A stretch of 64,000 bases of DNA, taken from the NCBI RefSeq assembly GCF_029227915.1, contig NC_079878.1, forward strand, positions 19,094,001-19,158,000, read 5' to 3'. Position 1 is the stretch's first letter; every line of letters starts with the position of its first letter. Below, in pieces: positions 4,301-51,166 of the stretch. Source of the stretch: Hydractinia symbiolongicarpus (Eukaryota > Cnidaria > Hydrozoa > Anthoathecata > Hydractiniidae). Position numbers and translations under genes: made by a program. The notes beneath the pieces were generated by a model that searched no databases, was not told the DNA's origin, and saw only the letters and a list, made by a program, of their open reading frames with translations.

Positions 4301-5675
4301 AGTCTCTTTAATATTACCCGTATTCCATCTGTCTGTTTGTGCGCGAGAAACACGTCGTGTTATGGAACACGAAATGCCATATATAAAGGACGGGCGACCC
4401 GGTGGAATTTTCCACGGGTTAACGACTAGTCCCTTTAATATTAGCCGTCGTCTGTCTGTTTGCCTGTCTGTTACGGAAACACAAAATTCGATATATAAAG
4501 AACAGGCGACCCCGTGAATTTTTCCACGGGTTGATAACTATTCTATATTATGATACCCGTATACGTCTGTCAGTAGCGAAACACACGAAATGCGGTAAAT
4601 AAAGGACGGCCGAACCATGTCATTGACTAGTTTTTTAAAAAAAATTAACATTGTAACAAATTTACCATTACCATGTGTCGTTGCAATGTGTTTCATTTAT
4701 AATGATTTTGCTGATGCGAAAAATACAAGTAGTTGGAATAAAAGAAATTTATATTCAGTTATAAAAAGTTGTTTTATTTTTTTCCCAATGTATTAGATTA
4801 ATAACATCGACCTTCGGAATGTATCTAAGCTGGCAGCGAATTCCATTCTCCGTTCATTTGAAATCACATCAAAAACACAACCAACGAGACACGTGAAAAT
4901 AACTCTCCAAAAGCGAGAGTGGATAGTCGCGAAAAATGAAGACGATAACGCAAAATTGGATATTGTGGTAAGTTTTTTACACATGCATCACGGACGTATG
5001 TTGGTTTTCTTGAGAAAAGTCTTAAGAACAAGATAGATACTTTTACAATTAAAACAGCACTGCAAAGATACGGGTTGAATATAAAAAGTAAGCTTGCTTA
5101 CTCTCTCAATTTTGCTACGCTTTTTGTTATTTCTAACCAGTACTCCAGTAAGCACTTTTTTAATAAGATTTTTGCCGAGTTTCAAATCTTTTGAAACGAT
5201 ACTAGGGGTTCCTTTTTCCTTCTTCTTCTTCTTCTTCTTCTTCTTCTTCTTCTTCTTCTTCTTCTTCTTCTTCTTCTTCTTCTTCTTCTTCTTCTTCTTC
5301 TTCTTCTTCTTCTTCTTCTTCTTCTTCTTCTTCTTCTTCTTCTTCTTCTTCTTCTTCTTCTTCTTCTTCTTCTTCTTCTTCTTCTTCTTCTTCTTCTTCT
5401 TCTTCTTCTTCTTCTTCTTCTTCTTCTTCTTCTTCTTCTTCTTCTTCTTCTTCTTTTTATTATTATTATTATTAATCATAAAACCGGGTTCCATTATATT
5501 AACAAATGATTCTTCTCCCAAAACTTAAACATAAAAGAAAAGTAAAATAGTCGTAAAATAATTTAAATTCACTATATATATAATATCTACAAAATAAAAG
5601 TTTTTGATCACGCGAAGAAACAAACTTCAATAGTTGACGCAAGTAGTTAATGAAAAAAATCCAAACCTGTCATAA
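1394..5675 (+). CDS. Single-PDZ-domain protein, multi-exon
   Basis: Coding exons read from splice sites and phase: 1394-1402 (M-R-K only), 1479-1532, 2393-2491, 2720-2792, 3009-3136, 4797-4967; the probable last exon is 5634-5675. All have AG/GT borders and junctions through 4967 keep one frame (178 codons). Residues 1-78 are basic and Ser-rich, without a recognised domain. Residues ~79-165 form a PDZ domain: carboxylate-binding loop G-I-G-V at 79-82, then YVSGFKPGSAAEK, IGIGDKVVQINN and VSKLAANSILR, the usual order of PDZ core strands and helix. PDZ domains bind C-terminal peptides of membrane or junction proteins. The last exon has a weak pyrimidine tract and is the least certain part; a longer alternative starts at 5724. 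AATAAA lies at 5926. The 9-nt coding start exon is also unproven. A 19-codon upstream ORF begins at 1338 and its TGA overlaps the main ATG. No subfamily recognised. Confidence 0.72.
3137..4089. other. Intron of the PDZ gene, left part
   Basis: Non-coding AT-rich intron sequence between the two halves of the PDZ domain. No recognisable element until the tandem Helitron-like array begins. Confidence 0.5.
4090..4620 (+). mobile_element. Tandem array of ~128-bp mini-Helitron-like units
   Basis: Four to five head-to-tail units, with borders at 4175, 4303, 4430 and ~4542. Each starts with TC directly after CTAG (4171-4174, 4299-4302, 4426-4429) and continues into a CCGTATTCCGTCTGTCTG-type segment. 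Each ends with a hairpin (arms CCCGTGG/CCACGGG around a T-rich loop), then about 10 nt, then CTAG. A 5' TC and a 3' hairpin followed by CTRR are the known termini of Helitrons. The units contain almost nothing but the two ends. In the third border CTAG has decayed to CTAT. Homologous, longer units occur at 43.9-47.0 kb. Confidence 0.68.
5219..5474 (+). repeat. (CTT)79 microsatellite followed by (TTA)n
   Basis: A pure CTT/GAA run of 237 bp (5219-5455) followed by about six TTA repeats. It sits between the last secure PDZ exon and its likely terminal exon. Long GAA/CTT tracts can form triplex structures. The open frames across it are pure repeat translations, not genes. Confidence 0.97.
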
Positions 5676-6606: not shown

Positions 6607-9600
6607 ATGGCGAAAAGCAAGAAAGGAAAGAAACTGGAAAGCATTAGTGATTTTCAAAAACGAACAAGTAATGAATACATTCCTCTCACAAGCGAAGAAG
6701 ATAGTCAGACTGCCGCACCAGCCACCTCTAAGAAAACTTTAACCCCTATACCAACAAGAAAGAGCGACGAGCTTCAAATTGTTGACCTTGATAGTGAAAA
6801 GAAGTCAATGGAGGTAGTATAATTATTTGAGAGTAGAGGTCAAGTCGGAAATATTTTAGGATCACAATTGTTACTTCAATGCGCAGTCAGTCCAGAAATT
6901 CATGTGTACAAAAATTTTACTTTTTTTACTTGTTTGTATGATCCTCGTGTAATTCCTCAAGAGAGTTATAATCTTCGGCTATTGCAAAAAAAACAATTTT
7001 TCAACTAAAAAGCGTTGGGAATAACTTATTAGTGCGAATTTGGATAAAAATCGCTCTTATAACTTTAATTCTGCACGAACCCCCAAAAATTCTAATTCGC
7101 ACTTATAAGTTTCGCATTAGACAATTTTTTTTTTACAATAGCAAAAATGTTTATTTTTCTTAATTTTAACTTGGTACATAAAAGGGATATTCAATCAGAA
7201 TAATGCATTTTTCGCTATTATTTTCTCATTTAAAAGGACGTATGTTCCGTCGTCAATTTTTAGCAGTCTTCAAACTTTTCAGGATAACCTACTCGATAAT
7301 CGTCACGAAGTAATAATACCTGAATGCCATTAGTTAAAAATGTTACTTTTTTACACCTAATGAAAGCTTCTCAATTTTTAAAAAGGCGACTAGTCGGTTT
7401 CTTTTACGAAGCAGTTTCTTATCTTATATGAAAAACGTGTATGCAAAAAATAATAATTTGCTTTTAATTTACACAAAACTTAACTTATGCCTAAGTACTA
7501 ATAAAGTATCCTCTTAAAACACCAAAATGTTCCTAATAAATTCTGCCCTTTTTAGCAATGCTGCTGATCCGCACTAATTTACTCTGTTCTAATTTAATTT
7601 AAATTTTTTGAAGCACTTGTTCACTTTTTATTCTTTCAAGTACTGAGGACGAGGTTGAACATTTTCAAAATTGTCTAATTCTTTATATATGAAATCAATT
7701 TCATCGCTATTAATATTTATGAATATTTCAATATGGAAACCTTTTATAAACAATCGACTTTATTGTGAAGATTTAAATTGTTTTTGGAAGAACAATGGTG
7801 TCTAAAACACCTGCCGTTTAATATAAGACAAGATGCAATCCCATTCTGCGAAGTATCCATGCACAACCAAAAGCCACCTAGAGTTGAAAAGATATATTTT
7901 ACACGTGTTTCCTTTTCCTAAATTTCAACTTTAGTGTGGCATAAGTAGCTTCGTCCTTTCACCACTTATTCAATGTCGTACACCGTTTTAAAGGCGATAT
8001 TTCATCATCTGTTTTTCACATGACTATAATTTCACGTCGTCAGTACCAGACCGGCTAATTTATGTAAAATACAGAACAGTCAGATATAAAAAAAAACATT
8101 GGAACTGGGATCAGAAGGAAAAGAAAGGATTTTTGTGGCATAGTTGGAAGTTTTGCAATCAGAATGCCAACAAGGTTATTCTAACGTAATGTCAGTACAC
8201 ACAAGCATGTCTGATGACAGGCTTGCGTTAGGGAACTCGGACTATTTGGTAGGTTATTATACATAGCCCTTACCTACCTACCTACCTAGGTATAGCTAGC
8301 TGGCTACCAAAACCACAACCAAAAATATGGCGCGAATATACTTTGGCAACAATGAGACTGCAAACTATAGCTAGGAAATTTTCTTCCCAAAAATAGAGCT
8401 AATTCAGCCTTTTTGTTTTCCATTATAGGAATTATCCTTTTCTCTTTTCTTTCCAGCTATATACCTTGCAAGAAAGAATCGTGACTTTTATGCCCTCTGC
8501 TTTTACTTGCTTAGCAACATGAAAATTAAAAATTATATGCCATTAAAAATGCATTTAACATTATACATGGTCCATTAATTAATTCATGATGACTGATACA
8601 AGTTGGCAACATGTTGTAAAATATTTTTAAATGGATGCAACAATGTGTTAAGGTTGTACTTGTTAATATAGAAGCTTAGTCTATAGCTATGGCTATCACA
8701 TGAATACATTATATGCTGTGTACGTGGTGAAGACATTTATAGATATTATAGTGAAGATATTATATATTTATTAATTAAAAAATTGGCTAAAATATTTACA
8801 AATAATTTTACACATCACATCAAATTAGGAGTTGTATGAATATAACAACATTAAAACTGCAGTATTGATCCTTCTAACGTACAAGGTGTACTTTTTCTTT
8901 GTAACGATTCAACATTGTTACAAGTAGTAATGATGTTGATATAAGTAATAAAAATGAAGGAAAGTAATAAAGATAAAAGTCCTTTGATTTTAAAGGTTTG
9001 TAACTTGTTGCACTTTCACGTAAACCAGAAGTTTAGCTTAGTAAATGTGTATATACATTATTTTCTTAATGTTTGTATTTGCCAGCAGTAATAATTATTG
9101 ATTATCTACTTACTCTATTCTAAGCAGGTTGTTTTTTGTTTGTCTCAATTTTAAACTGTTAAGCAAAAAATATTTTAAGTTTGGAAATGCAGCAAATTAA
9201 TATATGTGTAATCATGCAAATACATTTAAAATTCAATATGGTTGCCTATTTTTTTAAAAAAATTTGATATATATACAGCAAATATTGTTGGTTTTGCTCT
9301 GTTTATGTTTTGGAGAAGCTAAATAATGACATGATGTGTCATGCAAGGTTGCAATTACTTTTTCAGGCTATTTCAGGAAGTAAGCACCCGTGCAGCACAC
9401 ATATCAAGTGTTTTAGGCTGTTTGTCAGCTGCTATATTTGTGTGCTACATATAATGATAAGAGGCTACAAAACCGGCTGTTGATTTTTTAATTTATATGG
9501 CTGCAAAAATAAATAAGAGCACTGAGGTCAAAAACAACATCTGAAATCATCTTAAATATGGCATTGGACATCTAAAAATAACTTATCTATTCGATATAAG

Positions 9601-12600
9601 TATTTACTATGCCATATGCCATTTACTATGCCTGGTAAAATAAACTTCAAACTTTTTTGAATTAGCTGGCTAGCTATATATTCTTCTTTTTTGCATTTTC
9701 CTCCTTAAATCAAACTTTTGATTTACTGATATATAATATATATTTCAGACCGTAGCTTATTTTAGTGCAAAAAAGAATACTAATTACAATCCTTTTTTAG
9801 AAAATAGCAATAAAAAAGTAGCAAATTCATAAACAAAGTAATTCTTCATAAACAGATTGTCTATATATACAGTTGAGAAAGTGCAAATAATTTTTTGTGC
9901 TTAACCTTTCAAGTGGTGTCTTTATTACACACCTTCATTCAGAATGCGCTAGAATGGAGAGTAATGTTCATGTTGAAGATCTCACTTTAACTGTTTTGTA
10001 GCCTCTTCAACTTCTTATAAACTTTGGATTTGGCATGTGTTATCAATAGCACACTTTAACCAATTTTAAGGTGTGTGTTTGTGGGTGTACACATACTACT
10101 ACACGCCTCCAAAAAAGTCTGTAAATACATCTAAATGGAGCATATAAGCTTTTGCAATATTATATACTAGTCGATAAGGCCTCTGGAAAAAAATTCACTT
10201 AGGCAGAAGAGCAATGGAAAAAATATATAAATTGTTATGCAAATATATTCAATTCTTTTTTAAAAAAATTGTTCACCCATTTTGCCTCTATTGTGTAAAG
10301 CACGAAACACTGATCAAGAAATTGGATTGCATACTTTCAACGATCGATTAAGGAGATATTAGGCTTTAAAAAATTACAAAAATCTGTCAATTGGCAAATT
10401 TTTTTATAGAAATTTGTTTACCTGTTGCCTCTATTGTACAGTGCTTGAAACAATCAAAATAATGTACATATAAAATGATGTACTTTCGCCAAACGGTAAA
10501 AGGAGATATGGGTTTTTAAAAATTTTGCTGATGTCAGCAAAGACCTGTACCAAAATTTTTGTTTAGAAATGTGTTATACAGTTACTTCCATTGCATGGAG
10601 CTTGAAATGCCGATCAAGAAATTGTATATGTTCATTATGCCTTTGAGGAACAGTTAAAGAGATATTGGTGTTTAAAAGTTTTCTAAAATGAGTGGGATAA
10701 CCCAGGTTTAGGAAATTGGTCCCATTTCAGTCCTGGGTGGTCACTATTGACCCACAGAGAAGATGATGCCAGTTATATCCACTCGTTTCCAAGTTATTTG
10801 GCTTTAATGCAATGCAAATTAAATTGTAAACATTGACGTCAATCTTATAGACGTTGGGAGGTAACGTCAAAAGAACTTATTTGTTGTTTAGCAATAATGA
10901 TATAGTCTCTTATTAAGGGTAAAAACTGCATGTAAAAATTGCCCTTTAAAAACACACTAAATTTCCATATCATTATTTATAATAGATGTGGTTTTCACAT
11001 AATGACAATTATTTTTAATGCCAATGGGCATCCATTTATTTCTCAAGAACAAAAATGTTATTTTTCCTATTTTCATTTGACAAAATTTTATCTCACTTCA
11101 GCAATTCATATTTTATTTTGTAATTATACGCTGCAGACCATTATAGGAAAAATAGTTAAACTTAGAGAGAAAATGAGGTTAAAACTTTGTGTTCAGTTAA
11201 CATTTATAGCATATTTTGTTTTAAAAATCACCCTATCTTGTTGTAAAATAGCAATAACATAGCCGTAAGAAGCATAAGTCAAGCTTGGTTCGGAAAAACT
11301 AGAACACTTGCTTGTAAACGTTTAACATTGATGTACTGCGTTTTAAGATTATTATAACGGGATATTACAAAGTTCGAAAATATCACTATTTTAAATTAAA
11401 AATTCCATAATTAAAAATATATACAAAATAAAAAAGAATTTTTAAAATACAGGATTTATGTATATGAATTTAATTTGTAGGAGATGTCTAGTCGAGGGTA
11501 CAACACTTTTGGTGAAGGTGGCAGTGGAGAAGAATATAAAGTAAGTTTACATTTATTATCATGTGTTTAACTAACTATGTATGTTAAATTTGAACAAGCA
11601 AAGATAAAGGGCAACCTATACCAATTTACTGTATCCTTGAGCAACATAATGATGTCAAAATAAAATTAAATATGAATAAGTGTAAATGAAAAACAATTTC
11701 GATATGGTGGAGAAAAAGTAACGAAATGCTACGCGCTGCAACAATCCTATTAAAAGAAATAGTACAAAACCATAAAAAAACTTAAAAAATGCACTGTGTG
11801 GGTAATAAAACTTCCCAAATAATACTGCTGATTATCGACCTGGTGCCAAATCACATAGTGACGACCATCTGCAAAACAATTCTATTTGATAAAAGGTTGT
11901 TGGAAACAGAATGAACTTACAGTAACAGAAGATTTGTGATTTTAATTAGCTACGTCTTATTCTGGAGGGGACAAGAATTAAATATGATGTGTGTGTTTAT
12001 CAGGGTACCGATTCCGGTACCATTTTGAGGTGCACAAAAAGATGAAGTACATGCTCAAGCACCTAAACAACCTAAGAGGTACACGAAATGACATGTACCA
12101 AAAGTTTGAATTTTTGAATCTCTGTGAGAGCATATCTCAAAGATTTCAGCCGAATATGTACAATAACAAAATCAAGAACCTGCATTCTTTTTTTCTTTCA
12201 GCTCTCTCACAATTCTTGCGTATTTTTAGTTCTTTATGAAAGCTCTGCTGCCTTAAAAAGGAAAGCGTCCTGGTTGCAAAACCGTTGTAATTTAGGAGTA
12301 AAAAATTAGCACTTTGGATTTTAAACAACACGCTACACGATTGAATAATAGTTATTCCTTTTATTGTTTAGAGTATTGATGATGAGGATATGAGTGGTGA
12401 GAGGGGAACTTATTTTAGAGATGGAAAAAGAAAAATCGGTATAGAAATGTGATTCTTATGTTTATGCCGTTGCACTTAATGTGCATGATTTTGAAAGTGT
12501 ATCTTTAATTTGTTATAGATTTTGTGTTAGTTTTTGCCGAGGAGGAAGACAAACAACCAGATGCTAAACATTTACAATTTAGAGAGAAATTTTTAAATAA

Positions 12601-15600
12601 TTTGAAGAGATCAAATGTAGAAATGGAAGAGGTATAAAAAATTGTTTGGTGTTATAGTGCATGGTGTTTTTAAACACGCTAGTTATATTTTGTTACTTTT
12701 TTAAATAATTTGTACTGCAGATGATATGAAATTAAGTCTTTCTAATTCAATCTATTTTATGTTAGCAAAGAATTGCTGATGTGCCATATGCCCACTTCAG
12801 CAATTGTTGAGTGTGGATGTGAATTATATAGGCTGAAATTAAACAAATGCAGAAAAAAATTGTTGTTATTTTTAAGAAAGATTCAATGTTTCCAGCTTAT
12901 TGTGTTGATGGGCATCTGCAAAACCTTTTTTTGGCAACATAACCAAGTGAAATAAATTTTCTGGTAAAGATTTTGAGAAAATAGTTACAGTTCTGATGTT
13001 TTATTGATGGTTACTGCCAAATAATATTAGATTTTCATTCTTATATTGCCCAATGGTCAAAAGATTTTTAATACAGAAAATGAATGAACAACATTTATTG
13101 AATATGTAATGGTCTAACAGCAAAGGAATGCTAATTCATTGCACAAACAAAAGAAAATAAGTTTAAGCTATGTTAAGAGGAAGACTTAACTTGAAGTTAG
13201 CCAGGTAATTGCAAAAGTTTCCCCATGTGCTTTTCACCTTCTTATAGATTTTAAACAAAGAGTTTATTTTGCACAAAAACTGGTGACTCGTTCATTTTTC
13301 AAAATGTAAAAAAATTGTTGATGATGTTTTATTCTTTCTGAGAGAAAAAAAAATTCATTCTTAAAATAAACCATCCACATAAAAATAAACTGAAATTAAC
13401 TTTTACACTGCCACGTTGAATATTTTTCACCCTACTGCTACACATGAATTAATGTTAATAGGTTTTAAGGGTATATTATTTGGAGTCAAAATGGTTAACT
13501 ATGTTTCATGTTCATTATGCTCCATATTATCTAGCTCTCTGATTATATTTGTTTAAGGAATTAGCTGATGATAAATCAACGAAGGTTCATTTTATTAAAT
13601 GTCATTGTCCCTTTGAAGTTTTGAAGTACTATGCTGAAGAACTTTCTTTCAAGGCTCCGTTAGAAGTAAGTTGATGTTTTCTTTTAAAGTGCTTAAACAT
13701 ATGATGCTTTAATATATGATTAAAATAACATATGACATGTGACATGCTTCACAAATGAATGATTAAACTTATTAGACACTTATGCACGTTAAAGTTACTT
13801 GATTCCTTTTTGTTTTGTAGAGAAGAAAAACAGATAAAGTTAATTGGTCAGAAAGAATGTTAAATAAGTTTCATTTGCCAAATCCATTCTATGAGGTCAT
13901 TCCGAATCATCCTCCAGATTACTTCACAGCTACTTTTCAGGGTGATAAATTCCATTTGTAAGTTTTTTTGTATGTGTTGCCGTTTTAAAAAGAATTCAGT
14001 AATAAATTTGTCATGCTAACACTTTCTAGGTGCTTTATGCGTAAGGCTGGTTTATAAATTACTATTCTAACTGACCCATGATCCATGGGATGGATGGTTG
14101 GATATAATGACGTTTTTTAATGACAGCACCCATAAATAATGCTTGTAAATAGCATTTTTTTAAGTCAAATTATGACAATTTATATTTCGTGAAAATATCA
14201 GGTTAAAATAAGTTTAAATGACATGAATAAGGTCTTGAATGTTATCCTTGATGAATCAGATATAGAAAAGGATGAGACTGATATTGATTCTGATTGATAA
14301 TATGAAATGACGGTTAACCATTAATTTTTTAGCCAGAAATTGTTAAACCTGTACCACACCAACTTAGATAATTTTAACAAAAACAAAACTTAAAAAATTA
14401 AATTATAAATAAGTACTCGCGAAAAATTTAGAGAAGCTAAATTCGTGACATTTAATCCTCGTGAAAATTTTAAAAAAGGCCTCATTCGCGAAAATAAATC
14501 CACACGGAAATTTTAAGAACAACATTTTTTTCTACATCTTTTTTTTCTTTTTTCATAGAATTCTGTAAGTCATGTAGAAGTTTAATCTTTTTTGTTTTTG
14601 CCTCATGCTTGCAGTATACATAAATTAATATTTACAGTCTCTGAAAGAAAAATCATTCTTGGGTTTTGAGCAGGATCCGTTTTCCTTTTTGCTTTCGGCT
14701 GTACATCAAACTGAACGTTGGCATTAGCATTCTTCTTAAAAAACTACCTGTTATTACTTAATCTTTCAGTTCACAATAGAGTTCTTGTACCATTTCTTCA
14801 TAGCGTTGCAACAGCAAATGGCCTTTAATACTGAAATGGTGACCATCACTTCACACACATTTATTTTTTTATTTGACTCGTCTTTTTTAATGGTAAAGCA
14901 GATCTGTGATGACTGTGATATAAATCTTTGTAACTTTACTATTACAGCAAATACATAGTTTCTTTACAAAAGCCATTTATTATACTTCTGACGGTAACCC
15001 CACACTCAATAAAATTATTTCCTAAAAGTTTGTGATTCACGAAAATAAACCCTCACGAATGATTAGAGAATGGTCAACTCGCGAAACAGTTGTCCACGCG
15101 AAATATTTGGAAACGACCGATTCGCGAAAATTAATCCTCACGAAATGTAATTTTATCCACTTGAGGTACAATCACAAAATAAGTTTTCTTGTATAACTGT
15201 GTAGTGCCCCACAGCCACGTCTTAACATTTTCTGTATGAAAAGAATTGGACAGTTTCACACTAAAATTTTAAGTTTGTTTTGATAAATGACACATTTATT
15301 TCGGAACTGTATAATCATAATCTTTTTTGTTTTTGTTTACAGGTTTATTGGGAGTGAGAATCCTGAAACGTATTTTACCGATACTGAAAGAACTCGTGTT
15401 TGTTATGAAATACTTGAGACTGCGCCTTACGGTAGAAGGCAAAAAGGGGAAATTGGTAACTATGATACTCTGTGTTCTTTGTTCTTATTATTATTTTAGA
15501 GATAGAAATCAGCATTGAACAAGAATACACTCTCATAAGCATGCATCTACATTACTTATTGTTTTATTGTCGTGCATAAAAGTACACCTAAAAACGTCTA

Positions 15601-18600
15601 TGTTGTATTTCAATCTTGAATATTTGACTTTTTTCTGAACAGGAATTGAACGTCTTGTTTCTGAAGGAGTATTTACTGCAGCATATCCTCTCCATGTGGG
15701 CCCCCATAAACGTCCTCGTGAGACAGGACCTGATAATCCTGGAGATGAACCACAACTTAACCAAAGACAGGTTAGAGGTTTAACATAAAATTGTTTAGAA
15801 TAGCTGGATTTATTTTATAAATCTGCACTGTTAATTTGTTAATATTTGACAATTTGTTAATAATGTCACAATTAATAATTTGGCACTGTTAATAATTTGA
15901 CAGCAACTTATTATAATAATATTTACCTAGTATATACACGCACTATACACACTAATATAATCTGCACTTTAATTGTAATGTAGATTTTAAAAATTTTCTG
16001 GGCTCGTTATGTTAAGTGGATTAGATATCAACCTCTTGATCACATCAGGTGAATATTTTTTTTGTCTTATTATGTGTCACATGAAAGTACGTGGTGTCAC
16101 CTGGCTGTTTTTTATGAATGTTTTATGCTTCCTTCGTGTTTGGGAAAAAATGTAAAATTTACCAACCTAGACATTTAATAGTGTGCTAAAATTAAAAAGA
16201 CAGGATTGATTGTAAAATTGCTAATAGTGAAAAATGACAAAAATGTTACTTTCATTTGGCACATTTTCATTTTTTCTTGCTTATGTTGATTACTGCTTTT
16301 TCTAGATTCTCAAAATGTATTGGGGGAAGTGGGGCAAATGGCTGAAATACCAGCCTCTTGATCATATCAGGTAATATCCACAGCCCCACACCTCTTTACA
16401 TTTCTTTTAAATTTTTACTATCTGGAAATTTGAAGCACAATTAATATTTTAGCGAAATAAAAATTTTGGATTTTTTTTTAGGGAATACTTTGGTGAAAAA
16501 ATAGGATTGTATTTTGCATGGCTTGGTAAGTACTATGTTTCACCAATTTGTCCTCCATATATCATTTGTAAATACTTATGAGGTTATTTTTACATCTGTA
16601 GGTCAGTACACTGCATGGCTTTTACTACCATCTTTTGTTGGATTATTAGTATTTATTTATGGACTAGCAACAATTAACTCACCTGATAACAGAGACGCGT
16701 ATGTATACTACAGTATATCATTTCCCAATACTATTTTTTTGTTCCTTAGTGCAATTTTCTTTTCAACGTTTGTTAACAGCAAATTAAGTAAGTAATCGCT
16801 CACTGTTTCTGTCAGTGTATGTTAATTAATAATATGATGACTCTCTAGTTAACGGACAAAAAGTAATTGTACTGGCAAAACCATGCTCAAATACTTTAGA
16901 ATAGGCTTATTTAGCAAGAAGACACAAATGTCAGGCTTCCGTAAAAATTTATATTGAATTTATGATAAGCTAATGTGTTAAAAAATTAAAAAAACATGCC
17001 AGCTTTTCAAGGTCTACGAGAATTGCGTGAAGCTATTCTTATTCCGTGTGCCTTTAATGCGATTGATGATGAAGAATATTTCTTGCTAACTGAATTATAT
17101 ATGTCGAGAGAGCTTTCCCCTTATTGAGATTTTTTTAAATTTAATATAAAATTATGGGATGAACAACGTTGCTTAACTGTTTGCAAAGAACAGTGTGCTT
17201 GGAAATAGAAGGGTTGTGTATTTTTCTAAAACGTTTAGCATTTCCCTGCAGATACATTGATATGGTGTCTAGTTTTGGTACCCTACTGAGTTATTCTTCA
17301 TATACAAATTTGTGTTAGACCTTGTGTATGAGCATCATAATCACATATAACAATTATGGAGCCAAGATTTTTTACAGCGAGCCATACGGCAGCAATATGC
17401 AGATGCACTAAACCAAAATGGTGCATCCCTGCAAAATTGTTTTAGTTTTGATGATGGGACTGTTGTAAGGATAGATAGCCCTCAACAAAATCAAAGAGTG
17501 TGTTACAATGGCCATAAACGTGTGCATGCTTTAAAGTTGTAAAGCATTGCTTTTTACCAAATGGAATCTTTCTGATTTTAAATGACCGTTTGAAGGCAAG
17601 CAAGATGAAAGTACTGTGCGGAACAAATCTGGGACACTGCTAGACCCTTAGGACATGCATGGTATAACGGTCAAGTACTCTGCATATATGGAGACCTTGG
17701 TTAATCACTTTCACCAGCTCAACAAAATACCAAAAAAAGCTATGAGTGAAGTACGAGTGCCAGCAGAATATTTATTTGATAATGTAAAAAAATTCTTTAA
17801 ATTTGTTGATTACAAACGACACAATTGGTTACAGTCCGGTCGAGAAGACGGTGCTCGTGTGTATTGCATAATGCATGTATATGCTTTTATGGAAACATGA
17901 CCTCCAGCTATTTTGAAGAGGAGCCACCATCACTACAAGAATATTTTCAATAAATAGATCTATCTATAACTTTGAACAAATTTTACATATAAATATCTTG
18001 AGTAAACATCGTCATAAACATCCGGAAATGCTGTTGCTGTTAATTTATAAGCTGTAAAATATTTCTTTGTTGATCAGCTTGATGTACAGTTGTTTTTGAC
18101 GCAAAAATTCTATACTTTCTGAAGTTGACTTCTAATGTTTTAAATAACATTCATCGCTTTGTTCAATCAAATCTTGAAATAAAATTTCATATTCAGTTGG
18201 TTGACCTCCAATTCCTGACCTTACATATCTCTTACATATCTTAAGCTCACAAAATATCATTTTAGTTCAGAATTGCTGCAATATTTTGTCAGGCTTGACT
18301 TCAGATTTTTAAGGAAAACATTCACTAGCTGCCCTTTGTCGCATTAACTCCAAATTGCATAAGTTTTTTTAAGAAATTTTGTCGTGTACGCAACTTTGCA
18401 AAATAAGACGCGGTAAAACACCTTGATCTCCAGTCCCTTCCCGCGTTTACCACTGACAAATGTGCGTCTTCTTGCTATATAAGACCAAAACTCTCTAAAT
18501 AACGGACAGCAGTTAGGAATGATCCTATGCGTTATTCTTTTAGGTCTTCTCTTTGTAATAGAAGCAAAGATAGATATAAAATGAAATATACAAAAGATAG

Positions 18601-21600
18601 AAATATATTTTTTATATGAACGAGTCATTGATAATGATTTATTAAATCATTTAAACTGTCTGTCCTTCTGTTTGTAGTAATTATTCCAAAGACCGACAAC
18701 TACTTTTCGAAATAATATGCGAAGGCGCACTTTAGCAGGTTTTAAGCAACAATCATGGGAAAAATTAATGAAACAAAGGTGGTTTAAAACTGTTGACTGC
18801 AAATTCGCGAATTTGCACGCATGTAGGCCTGGTAGAGCGGGTATGCAAAATTTGCTAGTAAAATTCGTTAGTGTACTAGCGCAACGAAATATTCTACGTC
18901 TGGGCCCACGAAAATCGCGAAATTTGAGAAAAATGGATGTGCAGTGCAGGTACCTTTCAAGAGTATGGATTTTACCAAATAACCACCAATAAGTCCGCTG
19001 TGAACATTGAAAAGTAAACTTAAACGAATTCAAAACGCGCGACTCTAAAATAGAAACAACAATGTCATCATTTGTGGTGTCATTTTACTATATTTTATGA
19101 TAGTAGCTACAAACAGCTAGGATTTATATATCGTTCCAATGAAATATCTAGATGTTTTATACATATGCATGTTTTAAAAACTGCCAACATTCTTCTTTTT
19201 TCAGACTTGATATTTGTAACTCGCCAAATGGTACCTACGTCATGTGTCCTCGGTGTGATGAACATATAGGATGCAAATATTGGGACTTAAAACAGAGTTG
19301 TACATTAGCAAAGGTGATTTTTTTACACGTCAGTTAGAATTTAGTTTGCAACTCCCTGCGCATGTTAGAATTTCGTTTGTAACTCCCTGCGCATGTTAGA
19401 ATTTCGTTTGTAACTCCCTGCGCATGTTAGAATTCCGTTTGTAAATCCCTGCGCATGTTAGTTATAACATGTTTTTAAATTTGTTCTTGTTAGGGTGTGT
19501 ATAGTTATGATATATTTATGACGTGTGGTACTGCCTGGTGTTCAATAATATTTCCATGTCTGTTTAGGTGTCGTATCTGTTTGACAATGCTGCCACGGTA
19601 TTCTTTGCTGTGTTTGTTTCATTTTGGGGTATGTATTCTAAAGCTGGTTAGAATTTATTGACTGTCAATGTTTTAATCCTCTTTTATGTAAGATAACATT
19701 TATTTTGCTAACTTTTAATGATGAAAGACTACATCATCTTGAAAGCTTTTGTACGAAATGCAAAGAAGTTGTTTTCTGTTGCTCTTCTTTCTCCAAAACC
19801 CATAACGAAGCAGATTTCGAAAATAGGAACAATTTGATTGCAATATGAATTAAACTTTTCCTTGTGAACTTATGTGCGCTCAACTCATGTAGACTAATAT
19901 AACAAGGGAAGTTTTTAACACTCAACTATAAAAGGTTGGCATGATGAAAAATGGAATACAACTTTAAGAAGTACGTAAGATTTAAAGACTTCGTTGTTTA
20001 CTCTACTGAAACCCAGAGCCAAAATAGCTATTCACAATTACAGCAATTATCTACTTACTGACGTTTTAATAACTTTCATTCATGCATTAAATAACCATGC
20101 CGTTAGTAACTTGAAATACTGTTATTTATTATAGTTATTTTCACTTTTCATTTAGCTGTTTTTTTCTTGGAATTTTGGAAGAGGAAAGAAGTTACTCTAG
20201 CTTACCAATGGGACTGTCTGGATTATGAATCTGAAGTTGAGCGACCACGTCCCACTTTTGCAGCATTGGCACCGACTGTTGAAAGAAATCCCATCACTGG
20301 CATTCCAGAGCCGCATTTTCCAACTAAAGAGAGAGCACCAAGACTGTATTCAGGAATTTTAATCATAGTCACCATGGTAAATTTGTTAAGTTGAAGCAAA
20401 TGTAGGAAGTTTATTCTTGTTTTTTGTATGAGTAAATTTCCTAACGGTTTTTTATTTCAAAACTTTGACATGAAGCTTTTTAAAATCCATTATTGTATAA
20501 ACCATTGGGATTGACTGGATAATTCTGTTTCATTTTCTCCTTTACAGTTCTCCTTTTTCTGAGGCCACTTTTGTGTTTATCGTATCATTTTTGTCTCACT
20601 AATCTTTTCACTTTCATAGGTTTCTCTGGTCTTAATTTTCATGCTGGGTGTTATTGTGTACAAGTTGCTTGTGTATCGACCCCTAGCAAGGAATCCCTTG
20701 ACTGCTTCCAGGGCTTTACAAATTGCAAATATATCTGGTGCTGTTTGTAACTTGATATGTATCATGATCCTGTCCAGGGTAAGCATGATTGTTATTTATG
20801 ACAGGCGTGGTGGTTAACCTGAAAAGTGGTCAATGGTATGCAACTTGTTCTACTTCTTCCGGTTCATATTTTTATTTAGGTGTATGAAAAAGTTGCTTTG
20901 GCGCTGACACATTGGGGTAAGAACGCAAAAAAGTTGTATCCATTTACTTTTTTTTGGCCAATAAGCGTATTTGTCTTTTTGAATATTCTTACGCTGCTGT
21001 TGCTGTGAAAAAAATAATATAGGTTTTGTTTCTCTTTAGAAATGCATCGAACACAAACGGAATATGAAGACAATTTAACCTTCAAAGTTTTCGTTTTTCA
21101 ATTTGTGAACTTTTACGCCTCTATTTTCTATATCGCCTTTTTTAAAGGGAAGTAAGTAACTTTTTATCACTCGTTATTATGTAGTATACTTTAAAAACCT
21201 AACGCCTGTACCATACTTGTGATATTTTTAGAATGATTGGATACCCAGGGCATTACACTCAGCTATTTGGGCTCCGCATGGAAGAGGTTTGCATACATTT
21301 CATATGTTAATGGTGCATATCGAAGATGTAAGATTACTTTGAGGTATTTTCTTTTTTAGTGTGGTCCTGGTGGATGTCTTATAGAGCTTGCACAACAATT
21401 AGTTATTATTATGGTTGGTAAACAGATCATTGGAAATGTGCAAGAAGTTATGATTCCGTAAGTTACATCACCCGCCATAATTTTACGCATTTATTGGTTG
21501 ACACCGTGATTCATGACGGGAAGACACAAACAAAAAAACAGTCAAAATGCAAATGAAACGTGTTTGAAAACTCCCGCCCGTACACGTGTGTGGACATCAG

Positions 21601-23880
21601 ATTTTTATGCAACAACCAAGAATAGTTCAAACTAACAGAACAAACTTAAATCAGTGTGTCAGGAATATCTTGTTTTATGTTATCGATGATGTTAACCACG
21701 CCTTAGCAGGGTCAGTGGTTTATACTATCTTTTTTTAACTTTAGAATAATTAAGCAAAAGTTGAAAAAGCGTAAACGAGGCAAGAAAACAGTTCAAACGA
21801 AACCAAGGTGGGAGGACGATTATGAATTAGTTGAGGATGAAGGATTGTTTGCCGAGTACCTTGAAATGGGTAAGTAGTGCTATTTTTTGATGGTTTATGA
21901 AATACTTCGTTAAATAAAGTTTTTGCAACAGATAGGAACAGGAGGCTTTCGATTAAGAAATAAATTTAATAGCTAAATAAGTTAGAATGATTTTTGTTCA
22001 TAAAACAAAATGTATATGGTTTTTGTTGATGTTGGTATTCGATTTTATTGTGAAAAGAAGTCATGAGGTCAATTTCGGTCTAGTTATTTGTATTATATAT
22101 AGTGTATCGGTCAATCTTTGACAGATATTCATCATATATCTAACGATATTATAACTTAAAGAATCTTTTTTTGAAAGTAGAGTCAAACAAAAACTTCGAA
22201 AACGTCTCATATGCAAAAATTTCGCGAAATATGGGATATTGTCTTATTTGCAAAAGTAAAGTCTAGGTTTTAATTTAGTGATCCAGTTTGGTTTCATCAC
22301 AATTTTTGTGGCTGCTTTTCCGTTGGCTCCATTCTTCGCATTGGCTAACAATATCTTTGAGATTCGTATCGATTCTAATAAGTTGCTATGTGAGACGAGG
22401 CGACCAATTGCTGATCGCGCCCAAGATTTAGGAATTTGGTTTAATATTTTGGATGCGGTGGCAAAGATTGCGGTTATTTCGAACGTGAGTTCAATTTTGT
22501 CGTTTATTTTTTGTATCAGCAGTGGGTGTCTGGAGTTGTGAAATCATCTCTCAACCTCGCCATTCGTCATTTTAAAAATCATTTGTTGCAGGACGAAAAA
22601 CAAAGCATGTATCTCCTACTTGGTTTTTTTTTATTCAGGCTTTTCTAATTGCTTTCACATCAAACTTTTTACCGAAATTATTATATCGTTCCACCATATC
22701 GCCGGATGGTTCACTAGAAGGTTATTTAAATTATTCGCTAGCCACGTCACCACCAAATACCACGGATAATCCGTGCAGGTATGTTACTCTTTTTTTTTCC
22801 AGACAGCTTTTTATTCAATGATCACTAAGTCTTTGCTAACACTAATTTCAGGTATCGAGATTTCCGCGATCCTAACGGCGAGATGACGGCTTTTTATTGG
22901 CATCTGTTGGCGTTAAAGTTGGGCTTTGTTATTGTGTTTGAGGTAATTAATTTGCTTTTCTAAGGATAAGCGAATCTAAAGGAACAGAAATTATTTTCCG
23001 TTTTACTTCGAATGAACGCCCCCATTTTATTCTACCTCGTTAAACGCCCCATTTAAAGAGGCGTTAAATCGAAACATAATGCAGTCAATTTTCGCGACAG
23101 GAACTTTCATTAACATTGTACAAAATATTAGAATAAAATATGGCCGATGCTGCATTAACTTTCAGTATTATTGACGATAATGGTATTATGTTTGTATTAT
23201 TGACGATGACGGTATTATGTTTGTATTATGTAAAAATAGACATTCCACTGGCAAAAACGAAAAAAAAAGTACAAAAACATTAAAAAGCCTTTGATCATAA
23301 AACCACTGACTAGAGCTATGAAATCACCTTGCAGCTACTTTACAGATATCTTGTTTTGTCCTCTAGAAAAGAACTTAAAAAGTTTGAATATAATTGCGTA
23401 ACACTTAGTGTGCGAAACACGCAGGTACGCAAAACAGCGCTAGGTGTTATGAAAAATGCTCCCCATGTTTTAAAGAGGATGAACTGGTCTCCTTACGATA
23501 CCAAAGTGAACTCTGGGTTTTCATTAGCGTTTTCCTTAGCCATTTAATGCCCACTCAAATTTTTGAAAGTGAATTAATTCTTGGCCGAAGAAAACGTTCT
23601 TTTTAAAACGGTCGTTTTAAAACGGTCAAAACGGTCGTTCATTCTAACAGTTAATGTTATCTAGTACGCTTTTTTGCATATAAATTTTTTCTGTTAGCAT
23701 TTCGTATTCGCCACTCATAAGCTGATCGACTTTTTGGTGCCAGACATACCAGAGGAGTTAGATATAGCCATCAAGAGAGAGGCTTACAGGGCGAAGAAAG
23801 CTCTCTCAGATCACCCGTCGCTGATTGACAATTCAGAAGACGAGTTAGATGAAAAGAATATCGACATCAAAGTACGGTAA
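6607..23880 (+). CDS. ANO7: Anoctamin-7-type TMEM16 protein (911 aa)
   Basis: Exons: 6607-6813, 11481-11540, 12372-12438, 12519-12631, 13558-13665, 13821-13957, 15343-15455, 15643-15770, 15984-16048 or 16306-16370, 16482-16525, 16602-16698, 19205-19313, 19568-19628, 20156-20376, 20620-20778, 20880-20916, 21040-21151, 21232-21286, 21360-21457, 21745-21869, 22279-22484, 22639-22778, 22852-22942, 23698-23880. Every junction is AG/GT and in phase; total 2,736 nt. The start ATG has G at -3 and +4. TMEM16 proteins are ten-helix membrane dimers acting as calcium-activated channels or lipid scramblases. The anoctamin dimerisation region covers residues ~85-330. TM1 follows [13 protein letters not shown]. 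Extracellular cysteines lie in [19 protein letters not shown]. Calcium-site acidic residues: E660, E701, E704, E733, D737. [30 protein letters not shown] and VPDIPEEL resemble vertebrate ANO7 more than ANO1/4/5. Odd points: the duplicated exon 9, and Gly656 where other family members have Asn. Confidence 0.95.
6814..11480. other. ANO7 intron 1
   Basis: A 4.7-kb intron, AT-rich. It contains a short TACC run near 8270, an imperfect inverted motif around 7025-7110 (TTAGTGCGAATT versus AATTCGCACTTA) and a reverse-orientation Helitron-like remnant from 10167. Otherwise no gene or element recognised. Confidence 0.6.
10167..10690 (-). mobile_element. Helitron-like remnant, reverse orientation
   Basis: CTAG at 10167-10170 followed by TCGATAAGGCC and TTCACTTAGGCAGAAG is the reverse complement of the 3' end seen repeatedly at 44-47 kb. 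The interior contains degenerate versions of the same family's phrases (GATCAAGAAATTG, TGCTGATGTCAGCAAAG). The terminal hairpin arm is damaged and the 5' end is not clear, so the right border is approximate. The copy is older and more diverged than those in OTUD3. Confidence 0.6.
14400..15150. repeat. Dispersed TCGCGAAA-type repeat in ANO7 intron 6
   Basis: Two blocks (14415-14510 and 15030-15150) contain many copies of short phrases such as TCGCGAAAAT, CTCACGAAA and CACGCGAAA, flanking about 500 bp of ordinary sequence. A fragment around 14770-14860 reads on the - strand like a decayed exon ([18 protein letters not shown]), which I do not recognise. It looks like an old non-autonomous element. 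Its boundaries are not resolved. Confidence 0.4.
15984..16048 (+). CDS. ANO7: ANO7 alternative exon 9a
   Basis: 65 bp, bounded by TGTAATGTAG and GTGAATA. It encodes [12 protein letters not shown] followed by [10 protein letters not shown], the cytosolic segment immediately before TM1. It enters in phase 0 and leaves in phase 2, exactly like exon 9b. Both encode the conserved QPLDHIR of the family, but 9a differs in the first half (FWARYVKW against YWGKWGKW). Confidence 0.88.
16306..16370 (+). CDS. ANO7: ANO7 alternative exon 9b
   Basis: 65 bp, bounded by TGCTTTTTCTAG and GTAATA. It encodes [12 protein letters not shown] followed by [10 protein letters not shown]. Length, phases and position match exon 9a. 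Because 65 is not a multiple of three, including both exons or neither breaks the frame, so only one can be used per productive mRNA. The 9b version (tryptophans and glycines before KYQPLD) is closer to what I recall of vertebrate ANO7. Confidence 0.9.
16996..17952 (+). pseudogene. Decayed Harbinger-type (DDE_Tnp_4) transposase in ANO7 intron 11
   Basis: Scattered frames on the + strand give the order expected for a HARBI1-like nuclease: [17 protein letters not shown], then FDDGTV (first catalytic Asp region), [17 protein letters not shown], a [15 protein letters not shown]-like block, then AMSEVRV and [14 protein letters not shown] near the C-terminus, ending with a PPSLQEYF-like tail. At least four stops or frameshifts interrupt it, so it is inactive. 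The intron is 2.5 kb, the largest among the transmembrane exons, apparently because of this insertion. Terminal inverted repeats were not identified. Confidence 0.75.
19333..19463 (+). repeat. 31-bp tandem repeat, four copies
   Basis: Copies start at 19333, 19364, 19395 and 19426, with a partial fifth at 19457. Each contains TTAGAATTTCGTTTG and CTCCCTGCGCATG with few mismatches. It lies in ANO7 intron 12, directly after exon 12. Confidence 0.93.
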
Positions 23881-26190: not shown

Positions 26191-29100
26191 CTAAATTTTG
26201 ATACGAGGTAAATAAGTTTTTGTCACTGGGGAAATTTGTGCCACAGAAGACGTGTTTACCACAGATGAAGTTTTTTCAACAGAAGGGTTGTGAGTTGTGT
26301 CACTTCTTTTTGTTTCCTCCCTTCGTTTTTTACGATTTTGTTTCGCCAACTCTTTTCGCTGTCTATTAGATAGGTGTCTTTGTTTCGCTTTTTGCGTTTT
26401 TTTCTGCGCGCTTCCTTTGTCTGTTATTGTCCCTTCTTTTTCCTTACAAGAGCAGTTTACAGTATCAACAGAGGCTTTCGAGGTGTTGTTATTTTTTACC
26501 GGCGAAACATCATCCGATAATACATCCAATTTTGTCGAACAAATCAGCGTACTCTCATTGCTTTCACTGTCGTCTTTCACTTCTTCAAGACGTTTTTCTG
26601 ATGTAGGTTTCTCCTTATCTATAAAAAACGTCGGAATTTAAACTGTTTGCATTGTAAAAGAATTTGTCGGATTAACATGGTAAAAAAATCGTCATATTCG
26701 CCCCACAAAGTTTGATCTAATATATGGAATGGCTGAAACAAAAACGCCACTTAATGTCTTTCAAACACCGGAACCACAAAATATATATTATAACATGAAA
26801 AAGACATGACGAAAAAGCTATCGGATTTTGCGTGCATTAAGACGGATGATTTTATTTTTCAAACTGTTTCCAGGATGTTCCGTTTCACATGTTTCATGGA
26901 GGAGGGGGATATTTTTTCTTTGCATTCGAAAGGGATTACCAGCATTTAACACAAATTTAAAATTCCTAGTGTGTCATTTATGACGGTGTGAGTAAAATAT
27001 ATGTTTTTTAGAACTTAACTTCTTTAAATTTTCTACTGTCGCCTCTATATTTTATGTTTAAAGCTTACCTCTCACTTCAAAACAACTTATTCTCATTCAA
27101 TTTCATTTAATAAAGTAAATCTATTTTTGTATGCAAAATCCGATTCAGTGAGTCTGTCATCTTAATCAAGAGCTCTCGCGTAAGCGGCAAACATTAAAGA
27201 ATTTGTAAAAATTGAAGTTTAGGTTTTTGACCTTCAATATGTTGCTCGATCCTAAGGTAACTCGCTGACATCATATACGAGAGTATAACGTTTGCAAATC
27301 TCATATACCTCCTTTCATTTTAACGGCGAACCCTAAAGCAACGTAATAACATCAAAATCAGATTAAATTCGGAAAACGAAGAAACATGCCAATATGGCGG
27401 AGTAAAAATTATCTAAGTGGGAAAAACACAACTTTTAATTTTTTTTTTAATATTTAATTGTTGTTGCAGCATTTATTGCAGGGTTGCGTTTATTTAAGGC
27501 GACATTCAAGGGAGAACAGTGTTTATTTAAGGCGACATTCAAGGGAGAACAGTGTTTATTTAAGGCGACATTCAAGGGAGAACAGCGTTTATTTAAGGCA
27601 ACATTCAAGGGAGAACAGCGTTTATTTAAGGCGACATTCAAGGGAGAATAGTGCTTATTTAAGGCGACATTCAAGGGACAACAGCGTTTATTTAAGGCGA
27701 CATTCAAGGGAGAACAGTGTTTATTTAAGGCGACATTCAAGGGACAACAGCGTTTATTTAAGGCGACATTCAAGGGACAACAGCGTTTATTTAAGGCGAC
27801 ATTCAAGGGAGAACAGTGTTTATTTAAGGCGACATTCAAGGGACAACAGCGTTTATTTAAGGCGACATTCAAGGGACAACAGCGTTTATTTAAGGCGACA
27901 TTCAAGGGACAACAGCGTTTATTTAAGGCGACATTCAAGGGAGAACAGTGTTTATTTAAGGCGACATTCAAGGGACAACAGCGTTTATTTAAGGCGACAT
28001 TCAAGGGACAACAGCGTTTATTTAAGGCGACATTCAAGGGACAACAGCGTTTATTTAAGGCGACATTCAAGGGACAACAGTGTTTATTTAAGGCGACATT
28101 CAAGGGACAACAGCGTTTATTTAAGGCGACATTCAAGGGACAACAGCGTTTATTTAAGGCGACATTCAAGGGAGAACAGCGTTTATTTAAGGCGACATTC
28201 AAGGGAGAACAGCGTTTATTTAAGGCGACATTCAAGGGAGAACAGCGTTTATTTAAGGCGACATTCAAGGGAGAACAGCGTTTATTTAAGGCGACATTCA
28301 AGGGAGAACAGCGTTTATTTAAGGCGACATTCAAGGGAGAACAGCGTTTATTTAAGGCGACATTCAAGGGAGAACAGCGTTTATTTAAGGCGACATTCAA
28401 GGGACAACAGCGTTTATTTAAGGCGACATTCAAGGGACAACAGCGTTTATTTAAGGCGACATTCAAGGGAGAACAGTGTTTATTTAAGGCGACATTCAAG
28501 GGAGAACAGGGTTTATTTAAGGCGACATTCAAGGGAGAACAGCGTTTATTTAAGGCGACATTCAAGGAAGAATAGTGTTTATTTAAGGCGACATTCAAGG
28601 GAGAATAGTGTTTATTTAAGGCGACATTCAAGGAAGAATAGTGTTTATTTAAGGCGACATTCAAGGGAGAATAGTGTTTATTTAAGGCGACATTCAAGGA
28701 AGAATAGTGTTTATTTAAGGCGACATTCAAGGGAGAATAGTGTTTATTTAAGGCGACATTCAAGGGAGAACAGTGTTTATTTAAGGCGACATTCAAGGAA
28801 GAATAGTGTTTATTTAAGGCAGTCACACTGTGAAGCACAAATCTTCTCAATAACTACGCTCAATTATGACTAAAAAGAAAGTGAACATTTAAAACATGTA
28901 TGGAATTTAAAGAGAGAGTTATATTTACATGTGATACTTAAAGTACACTTTCGAATGTCCTGTGTTGCGCAAGAAAAAACAACACTAAAATTTTAAAAAT
29001 AAATCTTTCTCAATTAAACTCATATATAAGAACTTTTTAACTCAAAATCCGCCAAAAAATAAAAACAATTTTAGAAAATTTTAAGAATATGGAAAGCCAT

Positions 29101-32100
29101 GTCAAACAGCTGGGAGGTGGAAAAAAATATATAGGGGGTCGTGAAGACTTGATAAAAAAATTATTTGTTCAAGGTAAACAGTGCAGTCTCTATGAAATTT
29201 TAATTGAAAGTAGCCAATCAATGGACGCCCTAAGATCACCACACAAATTTAGCTGACGACACAAAAATCTGACGTCTGAAGTAATTTAGAGTTTCGAGAG
29301 TGTAGTCATATTTAAAAGTGTTCTTAAAATCATCAACAAAAAATAGATACCGAGAATAAGTGTGTGATGACATTGAATACAGATACAAGCTTTACTCCAA
29401 ACATATTCGTGGAGTGCCTCGTTTTGTAATATAACCTCTTTACGAAACGAGAAGTTTCTTTCAAACTGAATTTTTCTGGTCCACCACTTCCACCATTTTT
29501 GCAACTTGCGTCCGCAGGCAACCCCTGCCCCCTCCCCCTAAAAATAATAAGTGATACTAGTAAGTAGATTCGAGTTAGACCGGGGGAGAGCGGAGTCAGA
29601 CCGGGGGAGGGCGGAGGTTTTTCTGAAGAAAAAATTCAATATATTTCGGGCACACTCTATCAATTCACTCAAAGAAATTCAAACATTAGCCAAAAAAGAC
29701 GGGATTCTTACACAGAGTCATAAAACGAGGCGTTGGCCATTAACTGCGAAAATAATTTTTGAGGAGATCAAAAGAGAAAGTTGGTTATTTTTATATTTTG
29801 TGCGGATACATTGAAAAGCAATCGGAAACATAGTCACTGTAGAAAGTTGCTTATTAAAAAGATGTTTCCAAAATGATGCAATTAGCGAAACGGTATCATA
29901 AACTTTTGTAAATTAAAAATACATTTAGACCAATAACTTCATCTTCTTTTGCTTAATACACAACGGAAATTGGACAGAGAAACATTTCCTCCTAGTAAAT
30001 TTAGAAAGAAAAAAAAAAAGAAATTTAATTAAAAATGAGATAGCTAATTAGGTTTTGAAAGTGCCGAATGAAATATATTTAATTGCACGTTGGAATTTTA
30101 ATCTGTTTCATAAAGATTCGTTGGAAAAGTGGGAGCCATAAGTTGTCATGGAGCCGGAATCCACTGCTGATCGGAAAACGTTGCATAATTCGCAAATCCA
30201 GATCACCTGTTTTAGCATGGTAGACTGTGAACTGTAAGTACAACATGCTCAACCTCCAGCTCAGACATGAGCTTCTGAAGATAGGAGTTAAAAGATCTAT
30301 CTTGACTATGTTAATACTTAATTGATGACATAAATTCGTTGAAATTATCACTCTTCATCGCAGATTATAATAAAAACAATAAAGAAACATTCTGCCTTAT
30401 TTGTCTTTTTATCGAGCACTTAACTTCACAGGTGGAGAGAAAAAGGATGGTGATCTTAAGTATGTTTTGTTATTAAAAGCCATCAAAGTCAGAAGTTTAC
30501 ATATGGCTTTTCATAGACCGTTTTATGTACGGATCATCACATCATTAAAATAAGTTGAAACGTTCGAACACACAACAGATTATGGGAAACGATGCAAGTA
30601 CAGAAGTGAAAGGGGATGGCAAGCGCAAGCGGGAAGGAGGTTTATCACGGAGCAGTTCGTTACGCGTAAACAGAACACCAGCGCAACAAAACTTCGCCCT
30701 GAGAAAAGACTTTGATGGACCTACTATATCAAGCGTAACATCCAATTTACCGATATTAAAAAGATCAAATACTTTCTCGTCGTCCGGGAGTTTTTCGCGG
30801 CCGAACATATATAGTAACAAAACGACCACAGATTTAACGACGTCAATTATCGAAGAGAACAAAAGGTCGGAAATGAACAAATTAAATTCGGATCGTTTAA
30901 ATGAGATGAGCATAGCTGATGACATTGTTGAGGGCGAGATTAAACACGAAGAATACATTTTACGACAGGATGTTGGCTATAAAACAAATTTAACTTCAAC
31001 AGAGTTGCGACAAGAAGGGACTACTTCACAAGTGGTTACAACAACGGCGTCTTCCTCACCTTTTCCATCCATCATCACACACGAATCTAACGAAATAACG
31101 ACAAAAAAATACGAAGAAAAGATAACGCCACCGATTGATCGTCATAGAGCGAATTCTTTAGATTTCACCTTACCTTACAAGTCCCGAGAAAATAAAACAT
31201 CGGGTGATTGTTCACAAGTCGCTTCGGATATGACGATTAAAAAAAATGTTGATAGTAAAATGTTGTTTAACAAGGAAGAGTCAGTAAGAAAATTAAGTAC
31301 GTCTGAACGAAGAAAGAAAAATGTTATACGGTCCCAATCAATGAACACACATGGGACGAGACCGAAAGTAACAGTTCATCGTAGCAACTCTGCTGAAAAA
31401 GACGACATGTTAATAAAACAAAATAGCAGCGCCCCGACGTCAAATGACGGACGCAGTCGTCGTATATCGGATAGTTGTTTATTAAAAGAGCAACATATCA
31501 AGAGGTCCGAACAATTTACTCAGATGTTAAAACAGTATCAACGGCCCGAGCAACGAAATAAAAAGCTTTCTACTTATGGCTTAGGCGTCATCACGGAGAC
31601 GACGAGAGAAGAAACTGACGGGAAAAAATTCAAATTTCAACATCGACGTGAATACTTTGATTCGTGGTTGAAAGACCAAAGTGATCGTATCAATGAACTG
31701 TCGCAGGCTGTAAAAGGAGACAGCGAAAATATTAACAGATTGAGGGCATCATTTCGAGAGAGGGCGTTACGATCTCCGCAAAAAAATTTACTTCCGCGAA
31801 GACCAAACTCTGTCAAGTTACCTCGACGCAAGAACAACATGTACGCCCAAAATATCGCCAGCAGTCCCGAAAGCGAAAGCGATGACTCATTTCTGGAGAG
31901 TTTACGTCTGAGAAAACAAGAACTTGACCAGAACGGAAACAAAATTCGACCAAAAGATCCTTTAAAAAAACAACTGAGTGACACTTTAATTCTGGTAGAT
32001 AAATCTTTTAAACCTAAGTATGAACCTATGCCGCGAAAAGACGGCATTAGGTTTTCAAAACCAACGTCGACGAGCTACAATAATGGCGCAAATAACGTCG

Positions 32101-51035: not shown

Positions 51036-51166
51036 GATGCTATGTTAAGCTGGCTCGGAATGCCAAAACGTTTAAGCGCTAGAAACACAATCGGGTGAAA
51101 CGAGTCAAATTTAGTAGGAAAAATTATAAAAATTAGTAAAAACAAGGGAGGTAGGAAAAACAAGCT

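Follow-up and report, generated by a model that had tools for sequence, protein, structure and literature searches.

A probable pair of mutually exclusive exons before TM1 in the ANO7 gene of Hydractinia symbiolongicarpus

In this colonial hydrozoan, the gene for ANO7 contains what is probably a pair of tandem exons, 9a and 9b, used one at a time, as judged from the genome sequence. Here it is proposed that a single 65-base exon was duplicated in tandem long ago, giving two coding versions, both of which would have been kept by selection and used singly. In this proposal, 9b would be the family-type default and 9a a second version keeping every basic and aromatic position. Splicing would pick one of the two, and transcripts holding both or neither would be lost as out-of-frame, probably by nonsense-mediated decay.

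The ANO7 gene and its tandem exons

The window, which is the whole 64,000-nt stretch of DNA that was analysed, corresponds to C4:19094001-19158000 of the 481-Mb genome. The hand-built gene model starts with the ATG at 11484, ends with the stop codon at 23878-23880 and encodes 841 residues, with 23 exons per transcript and introns that are all GT-AG. In its 9b form, the product of this gene corresponds to residues 71-911 of P0001, a protein of 911 aa annotated as "anoctamin-7-like isoform X4" of H. symbiolongicarpus. P0001 has one more coding exon at 6607-6813, 5' of the 841-aa model, so that the pair counts as exon 9. Pfam domains found on P0001 include Anoct_dimer (PF16178, residues 103-329, E 9e-69) and Anoctamin (PF04547, residues 332-879, E 2e-165). 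Among the 120 matches listed of 3547, all numbered names were anoctamin-7 or -7-like, from cnidarians to lungfish, and the remaining entries were named Anoctamin, hypothetical, predicted or unnamed product, or had no name. By the names of these database matches, the gene is assigned to ANO7 (anoctamin/TMEM16G) as the nearest. The exons are as follows.

6607-6813, + strand: exon 1, first coding exon of P0001 (residues 1-69), tblastn 69/69 identical
11481-11540, + strand: exon 2, containing the ATG 11484 that starts the 841-aa model, gene model
12372-12438, + strand: exon 3, gene model
12519-12631, + strand: exon 4, gene model
13558-13665, + strand: exon 5, gene model
13821-13957, + strand: exon 6, gene model
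15343-15455, + strand: exon 7, gene model
15643-15770, + strand: exon 8, upstream of the pair, phase 0 at its end, gene model
15984-16048, + strand: exon 9a, alternative version, 22 residues, last codon finished by exon 10
16049-16305, + strand: intron between 9a and 9b, 257 nt
16306-16370, + strand: exon 9b, family-type version, present in P0001 (residues 312-333)
16482-16525, + strand: exon 10, downstream of the pair, where the TM1 region begins, gene model
16602-16698, + strand: exon 11, TM1 region, gene model
19205-23880, + strand: exons 12-24 (n=13), remaining anoctamin domain to the stop codon, gene model and PF04547
19205-19313, 19568-19628, 20156-20376, 20620-20778, 20880-20916, + strand: exons 12-16, gene model
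21040-21151, 21232-21286, 21360-21457, 21745-21869, + strand: exons 17-20, gene model
22279-22484, 22639-22778, 22852-22942, 23698-23880, + strand: exons 21-24, gene model

Both 9a and 9b are 65 nt long, preceded by AG and followed by GT, entered in phase 0 and left in phase 2. Either one alone joins 15770 to 16482 in frame and gives the 841-aa open reading frame. With both included, a stop is reached at codon 276 (16343, within 9b) with 15 exon junctions downstream, and with both skipped, at codon 246 (16494, in exon 10) with 14 junctions downstream; with these junctions behind the stop, the junction rule would mark both forms for decay.

The original prediction had named the gene ANO7, taken it as cnidarian, numbered the exon as 9, placed it just before TM1, and described two homologous 65-nt exons with intact splice sites and identical phases, of which both or neither would break the frame. 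The name and the cnidarian origin agree with P0001, and the number with its first coding exon; exon 9 lies between the Anoct_dimer and Anoctamin domains, with the TM1 region in exon 10; the pair, its sites and its phases are seen in the sequence, with 44/65 bases and 14/22 residues identical between the copies; and the stops at codons 276 and 246 leave one-of-two as the only productive form. That one-of-two splicing is enforced, as was also claimed, stands for the protein frame and not for splicing, since the exons are separated by a regular GT-AG intron. At 257 nt this exceeds the intron length at which the usual steric block operates, so that both exons could physically be joined in one transcript, and exclusion would therefore need regulation or nonsense-mediated decay.

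No third copy of the exon was found above chance in the window (best other match E 0.15). Four weak non-self matches besides 9a were obtained with other ANO7 exons (E 0.006-0.03) and dismissed as chance.

Other features were noted in the window. The 2.5-kb intron after exon 11 includes a stretch (17020-17950, + strand) which seems by eye to be a decayed transposase-like coding sequence. A perfect run of 79 CTT units is located at 5219-5455. The array at 27486-28820, with about 40 copies of a 33-bp unit at 96% matches, is overlapped by three long open frames on both strands; it is a minisatellite, and these frames are not evidence of a gene. An open frame of 714 aa, stop to stop (30549-32693, + strand), has no Pfam match at E 0.001 and is perhaps an exon of an uncharacterised gene. 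A THAP-domain open frame (PF05485, E 5e-12) at 51155-51517 (+ strand) comes perhaps from a transposon, and another open frame at 53854-54240 (+ strand), with no Pfam match, has a motif which we take to resemble the end of a copia-type polyprotein.

Constraint on 9a and comparison with relatives

None of 100,000 shuffles of the 21-residue whole-codon peptide of 9b reached the BLOSUM62 score of 90 observed between the two exons (best 44). The similarity ends at the exon borders: the intron flanks are identical at 16/60 positions upstream and 11/60 downstream (27/120, against 31% expected by chance from base composition), which differs from the 44/65 (68%) of the exons with a Fisher P of 2e-9, and similarity in the introns around the copies is limited to short, mostly AT-rich words. 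Codon differences fall at 12 of the 21 third positions, six second and three first positions. By the NG86 method, dN is 0.28 and dS is incomputable, as when saturated. In simulations of neutral change (20,000 runs, simplified in that one copy only evolved to the observed divergence), the frame was still open in about a quarter of the runs (5098/20,000 starting from 9b and 5843/20,000 from 9a), 16/20,000 stayed open with at least 13 of the 21 residues kept, and none of the 20,000, from either start, kept the basic-plus-aromatic pattern with an open frame. With flanks at chance, exons at 68% and this simulation result, both copies appear to have been long under coding selection. The same exon-versus-flank identity and neutral simulation place both under coding constraint in these sequences, and most likely 9a is a coding exon that is both old and constrained.

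Eight changes lead from 9b to 9a (M4I, Y5F, G7A, K8R, W9Y, G10V, L13I, K14R). Basic residues are found at positions 3, 8, 11, 14 and 22 and aromatic residues at 5, 6, 9, 12 and 15 in both versions, each of which has one acidic residue, so that net charge is equal. The suggestion that the variants differ in charge and aromatics was thus not borne out, as the five basic and five aromatic positions coincide; the charge argument falls with it, and altered hinge flexibility becomes the better guess.

Of the 120 database relatives listed, 119 entered the residue counts, P0001 included (P0043 was missed by the pattern and is family-type). The commonest family residues are best fitted by 9b, in which G7 (12/119) and K8 (7/119) are minority residues; as far as these sequences go, 9b would be the family-type default. 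In 9a, I4, F5, V10, I13 and R14 each occur in 0/119 relatives and Y9 in three, and A7 (107/119) and R8 (109/119) are majority residues. Several residues altered in 9a are nearly invariant in ANO7 (Y5 119/119, K14 118/119, W9 116/119, G10 108/119), and these changes could be a sign of relaxed constraint. The 9a form was absent from each of the top 22 relatives, of which 18 are named cnidarians and four are unnamed. One of these four, P0003, reads YWGRYRKW, with Y9 as in 9a, R at position 10 and elsewhere mostly family-type residues.

Two narrow word searches for 9a in a set of 5.8 billion proteins retrieved only family-type proteins (2/2 and 8/8 candidates), the eight of the second search looking vertebrate-like by eye. 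This set is clustered at 90% identity, where an isoform differing in one exon is hidden behind its sister, and P0001 represents 16 sequences in it. Version 9b is present in the public protein model P0001, and 9a was found in no protein of the searches made; the public isoform set for Hydractinia ANO7, which presumably has further members given the label X4 of P0001, may already contain 9a.

The listed proteins also differ in the presence of PF00595, which we take to be the PDZ domain. It was found in nine ANO7 proteins (P0011, P0013, P0014 and P0017-P0022), the named ones from corals and two anemones and two of them unnamed, and was absent from the listed Hydractinia, Clytia, Hydra and Rhopilema ANO7 proteins.

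Origin of the pair and choice between its members

In the stretches searched, the C8 paralogue (24.86 Mb) holds a single such exon, LLYYHWGRPGRWFKEQPLDLIR, of 65 nt (counted by hand), with the flanking AG and GT placed identically. When its own exon was used as the query over two stretches of this gene (L013 and L016), only this single copy was found and no pair. A single exon of the same size with the same borders indicates that the exon borders are older than the doubling, which was seen only in ANO7 among the stretches searched. With ANO7 and ANO1/ANO6 queries, strong pre-TM1 matches in the other paralogue stretches never exceeded one apiece (L009 with L002, L012 with L001, and L015), three stretches (L011, L003 and L014) were matched at the TM1 end only, and in L010 and L018 a pre-TM1 match was absent. 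Exon pairs in paralogues other than the C8 gene are possible. Two anoctamin-like match sets lie about 43 kb apart on the same contig (C7:9260827 and C7:9303815), which suggests a tandem anoctamin duplication.

Splice sites were ranked among the 23 of the gene with a leave-one-out matrix of its own sites. The acceptor of 9a is the third weakest and that of 9b the seventh weakest, and the donors rank, from the weak end, 11th (9a) and 10th (9b). Of 21 control windows of equal length, 20 fold less well than the 711-nt region 15771-16481, whose fold z was -3.55, and -3.29 in another run (one control window had -4.45). Read by eye, the predicted fold appears to have an A/U-rich helix by which 9b is looped out. 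The intron-intron duplex looping out 9b was matched by 23 of 200 shuffles and the other two duplexes by 130 and 148, so pairing between the introns was not counted as evidence for an exclusion mechanism. A mix of U2 and U12 sites was also considered, and the sites of the pair are GT-AG. Exclusivity, if real, would come, we infer, from regulation of the weak upstream exon together with loss of the out-of-frame forms.

Other readings of the pair were considered. In one, 9a would be a relic: splicing no longer includes this duplicated exon, and it has yet to decay. Its weak acceptor (third lowest of 23), the five positions with residues seen in 0/119 relatives and the failure of narrow searches of the 90% clustered set to find a protein with 9a all agree with this, and a recent loss of 9a use is possible. 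However, with the flanks at chance and the exon at 68%, unconstrained sequence had time to saturate, yet 9a retains its open frame, its two splice sites and every basic and aromatic position (0/20,000 simulations), and a relic is improbable. It is less probable again that the pair is chiefly an on/off switch, in which regulated inclusion of both or neither would lead to destroyed mRNA and 9a would be minor as a protein. Such a switch needs no conserved peptide, and the peptide of 9a is conserved, although the stops of the both-in and both-out forms, with 15 and 14 downstream junctions, are what a switch of this kind would use. The merging of two alleles or two gene copies into one locus during assembly is hardly credible, since the exons differ at 32% of bases and the introns are at chance, a divergence much larger than between alleles; elsewhere the ANO7 model is intact, none of its other exons is convincingly duplicated in the gene, and the window lies inside one numbered contig, C4. 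The preferred reading is still that of two coding exons used one at a time.

Known exon pairs and the pre-TM1 hinge

In the ion channel CaV1.2, exons 8a/8 are mutually exclusive and reportedly regulated by polypyrimidine tract-binding protein; like ANO7 9a/9b, they exchange one small segment of the protein, which belongs to a different family. Tandem exons of which each transcript takes one are well known, for example from Drosophila Mhc and Dscam1 (PMC9013439). Like the exons of these genes as described there, the ANO7 pair is adjacent, homologous and equal in length and phase, and its length is not a multiple of three, so that including both or none breaks the frame; one version per mRNA would be expected in ANO7. 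Unlike them, the ANO7 set has only two members and is predicted from the genome sequence, and its intron-intron pairing is not beyond shuffles.

Splice variants of TMEM16 proteins include segments 0, a, b, c and d of TMEM16A, exons 4 and 14 of TMEM16B and variants of TMEM16F, according to parts of PMC8835819. Like the ANO7 pair, these variants alter cytosolic parts of an anoctamin, but those parts of the source describe alternative starts, optional exons and an alternative 3' exon, and no swap of homologous exons ahead of TM1. The human ANO7-L and ANO7-S, from the same family, are two transcripts made long and short by other means, as far as the available text of PMC9239746 describes them. No homologous exon pair in any anoctamin was named in the titles and displayed abstracts among the papers listed by literature searches. 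The 9a/9b pair would thus be a known kind of device, with the pair itself apparently new as far as that literature goes.

In the protein, exon 9 (residues 312-333 of P0001) bridges Anoct_dimer (103-329) and Anoctamin (332-879). In an alignment to a solved mouse ANO1 chain, the end of the exon falls on KYQPIDLVR beginning at residue 313, and K14 of 9b (R14 in 9a) aligns with K313 of that chain. According to PMC8640346, K313 of TMEM16A is located on the pre-TM1 segment, in PI(4,5)P2 site A/1 near the dimer interface, and K313-K322 (K281-K290 in TMEM16F) are termed the proximal KR motif; what this motif does in TMEM16F is a matter of dispute. Assuming the same residue numbering in PMC8640346 and the ANO1 chain, exon 9 holds the predicted counterpart of K313 of TMEM16A, a residue of the PI(4,5)P2 site, so the pair would vary a known regulatory joint with its charges kept.

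Two glycines are present in 9b and none at those positions in 9a, and of these changes only G10V departs from the family. The swap, chiefly valine for the usual glycine at position 10, would stiffen the hinge between the cytosolic domain and TM1; with the basic residues in place, the coupling of Ca2+ or PI(4,5)P2 to opening would be tuned and not abolished. A change of hinge flexibility between 9a and 9b is a guess, and the mechanism by which a stiffer hinge in 9a tunes coupling to opening is tentative, and rather doubtful. An AlphaFold2 model of P0001 (alignment of 37 of the 120 listed sequences) had a mean pLDDT of 62 and a pTM of 0.54, and a structural claim from it was dropped because pLDDT was below 50 for residues 317-332, most of exon 9.

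The activity of ANO7 itself is unsettled, with currents in some reports and not in all, and lipid scrambling reported, according to parts of PMC8835819. It is conceivable, and on balance unlikely, that hydrozoans, perhaps all medusozoans, switch ANO7 between a state with a flexible glycine hinge (9b) and one with a stiffer hinge (9a), the basic residues being unchanged, so that the Ca2+/PI(4,5)P2 coupling of ion or lipid transport would differ by cell type. Hydractinia can probably build ANO7 with either of two hinges before the membrane part, and natural hinges differing at 8/22 residues, with charge and aromatic positions constant, would be a ready-made test of the TMEM16 pre-TM1 segment.
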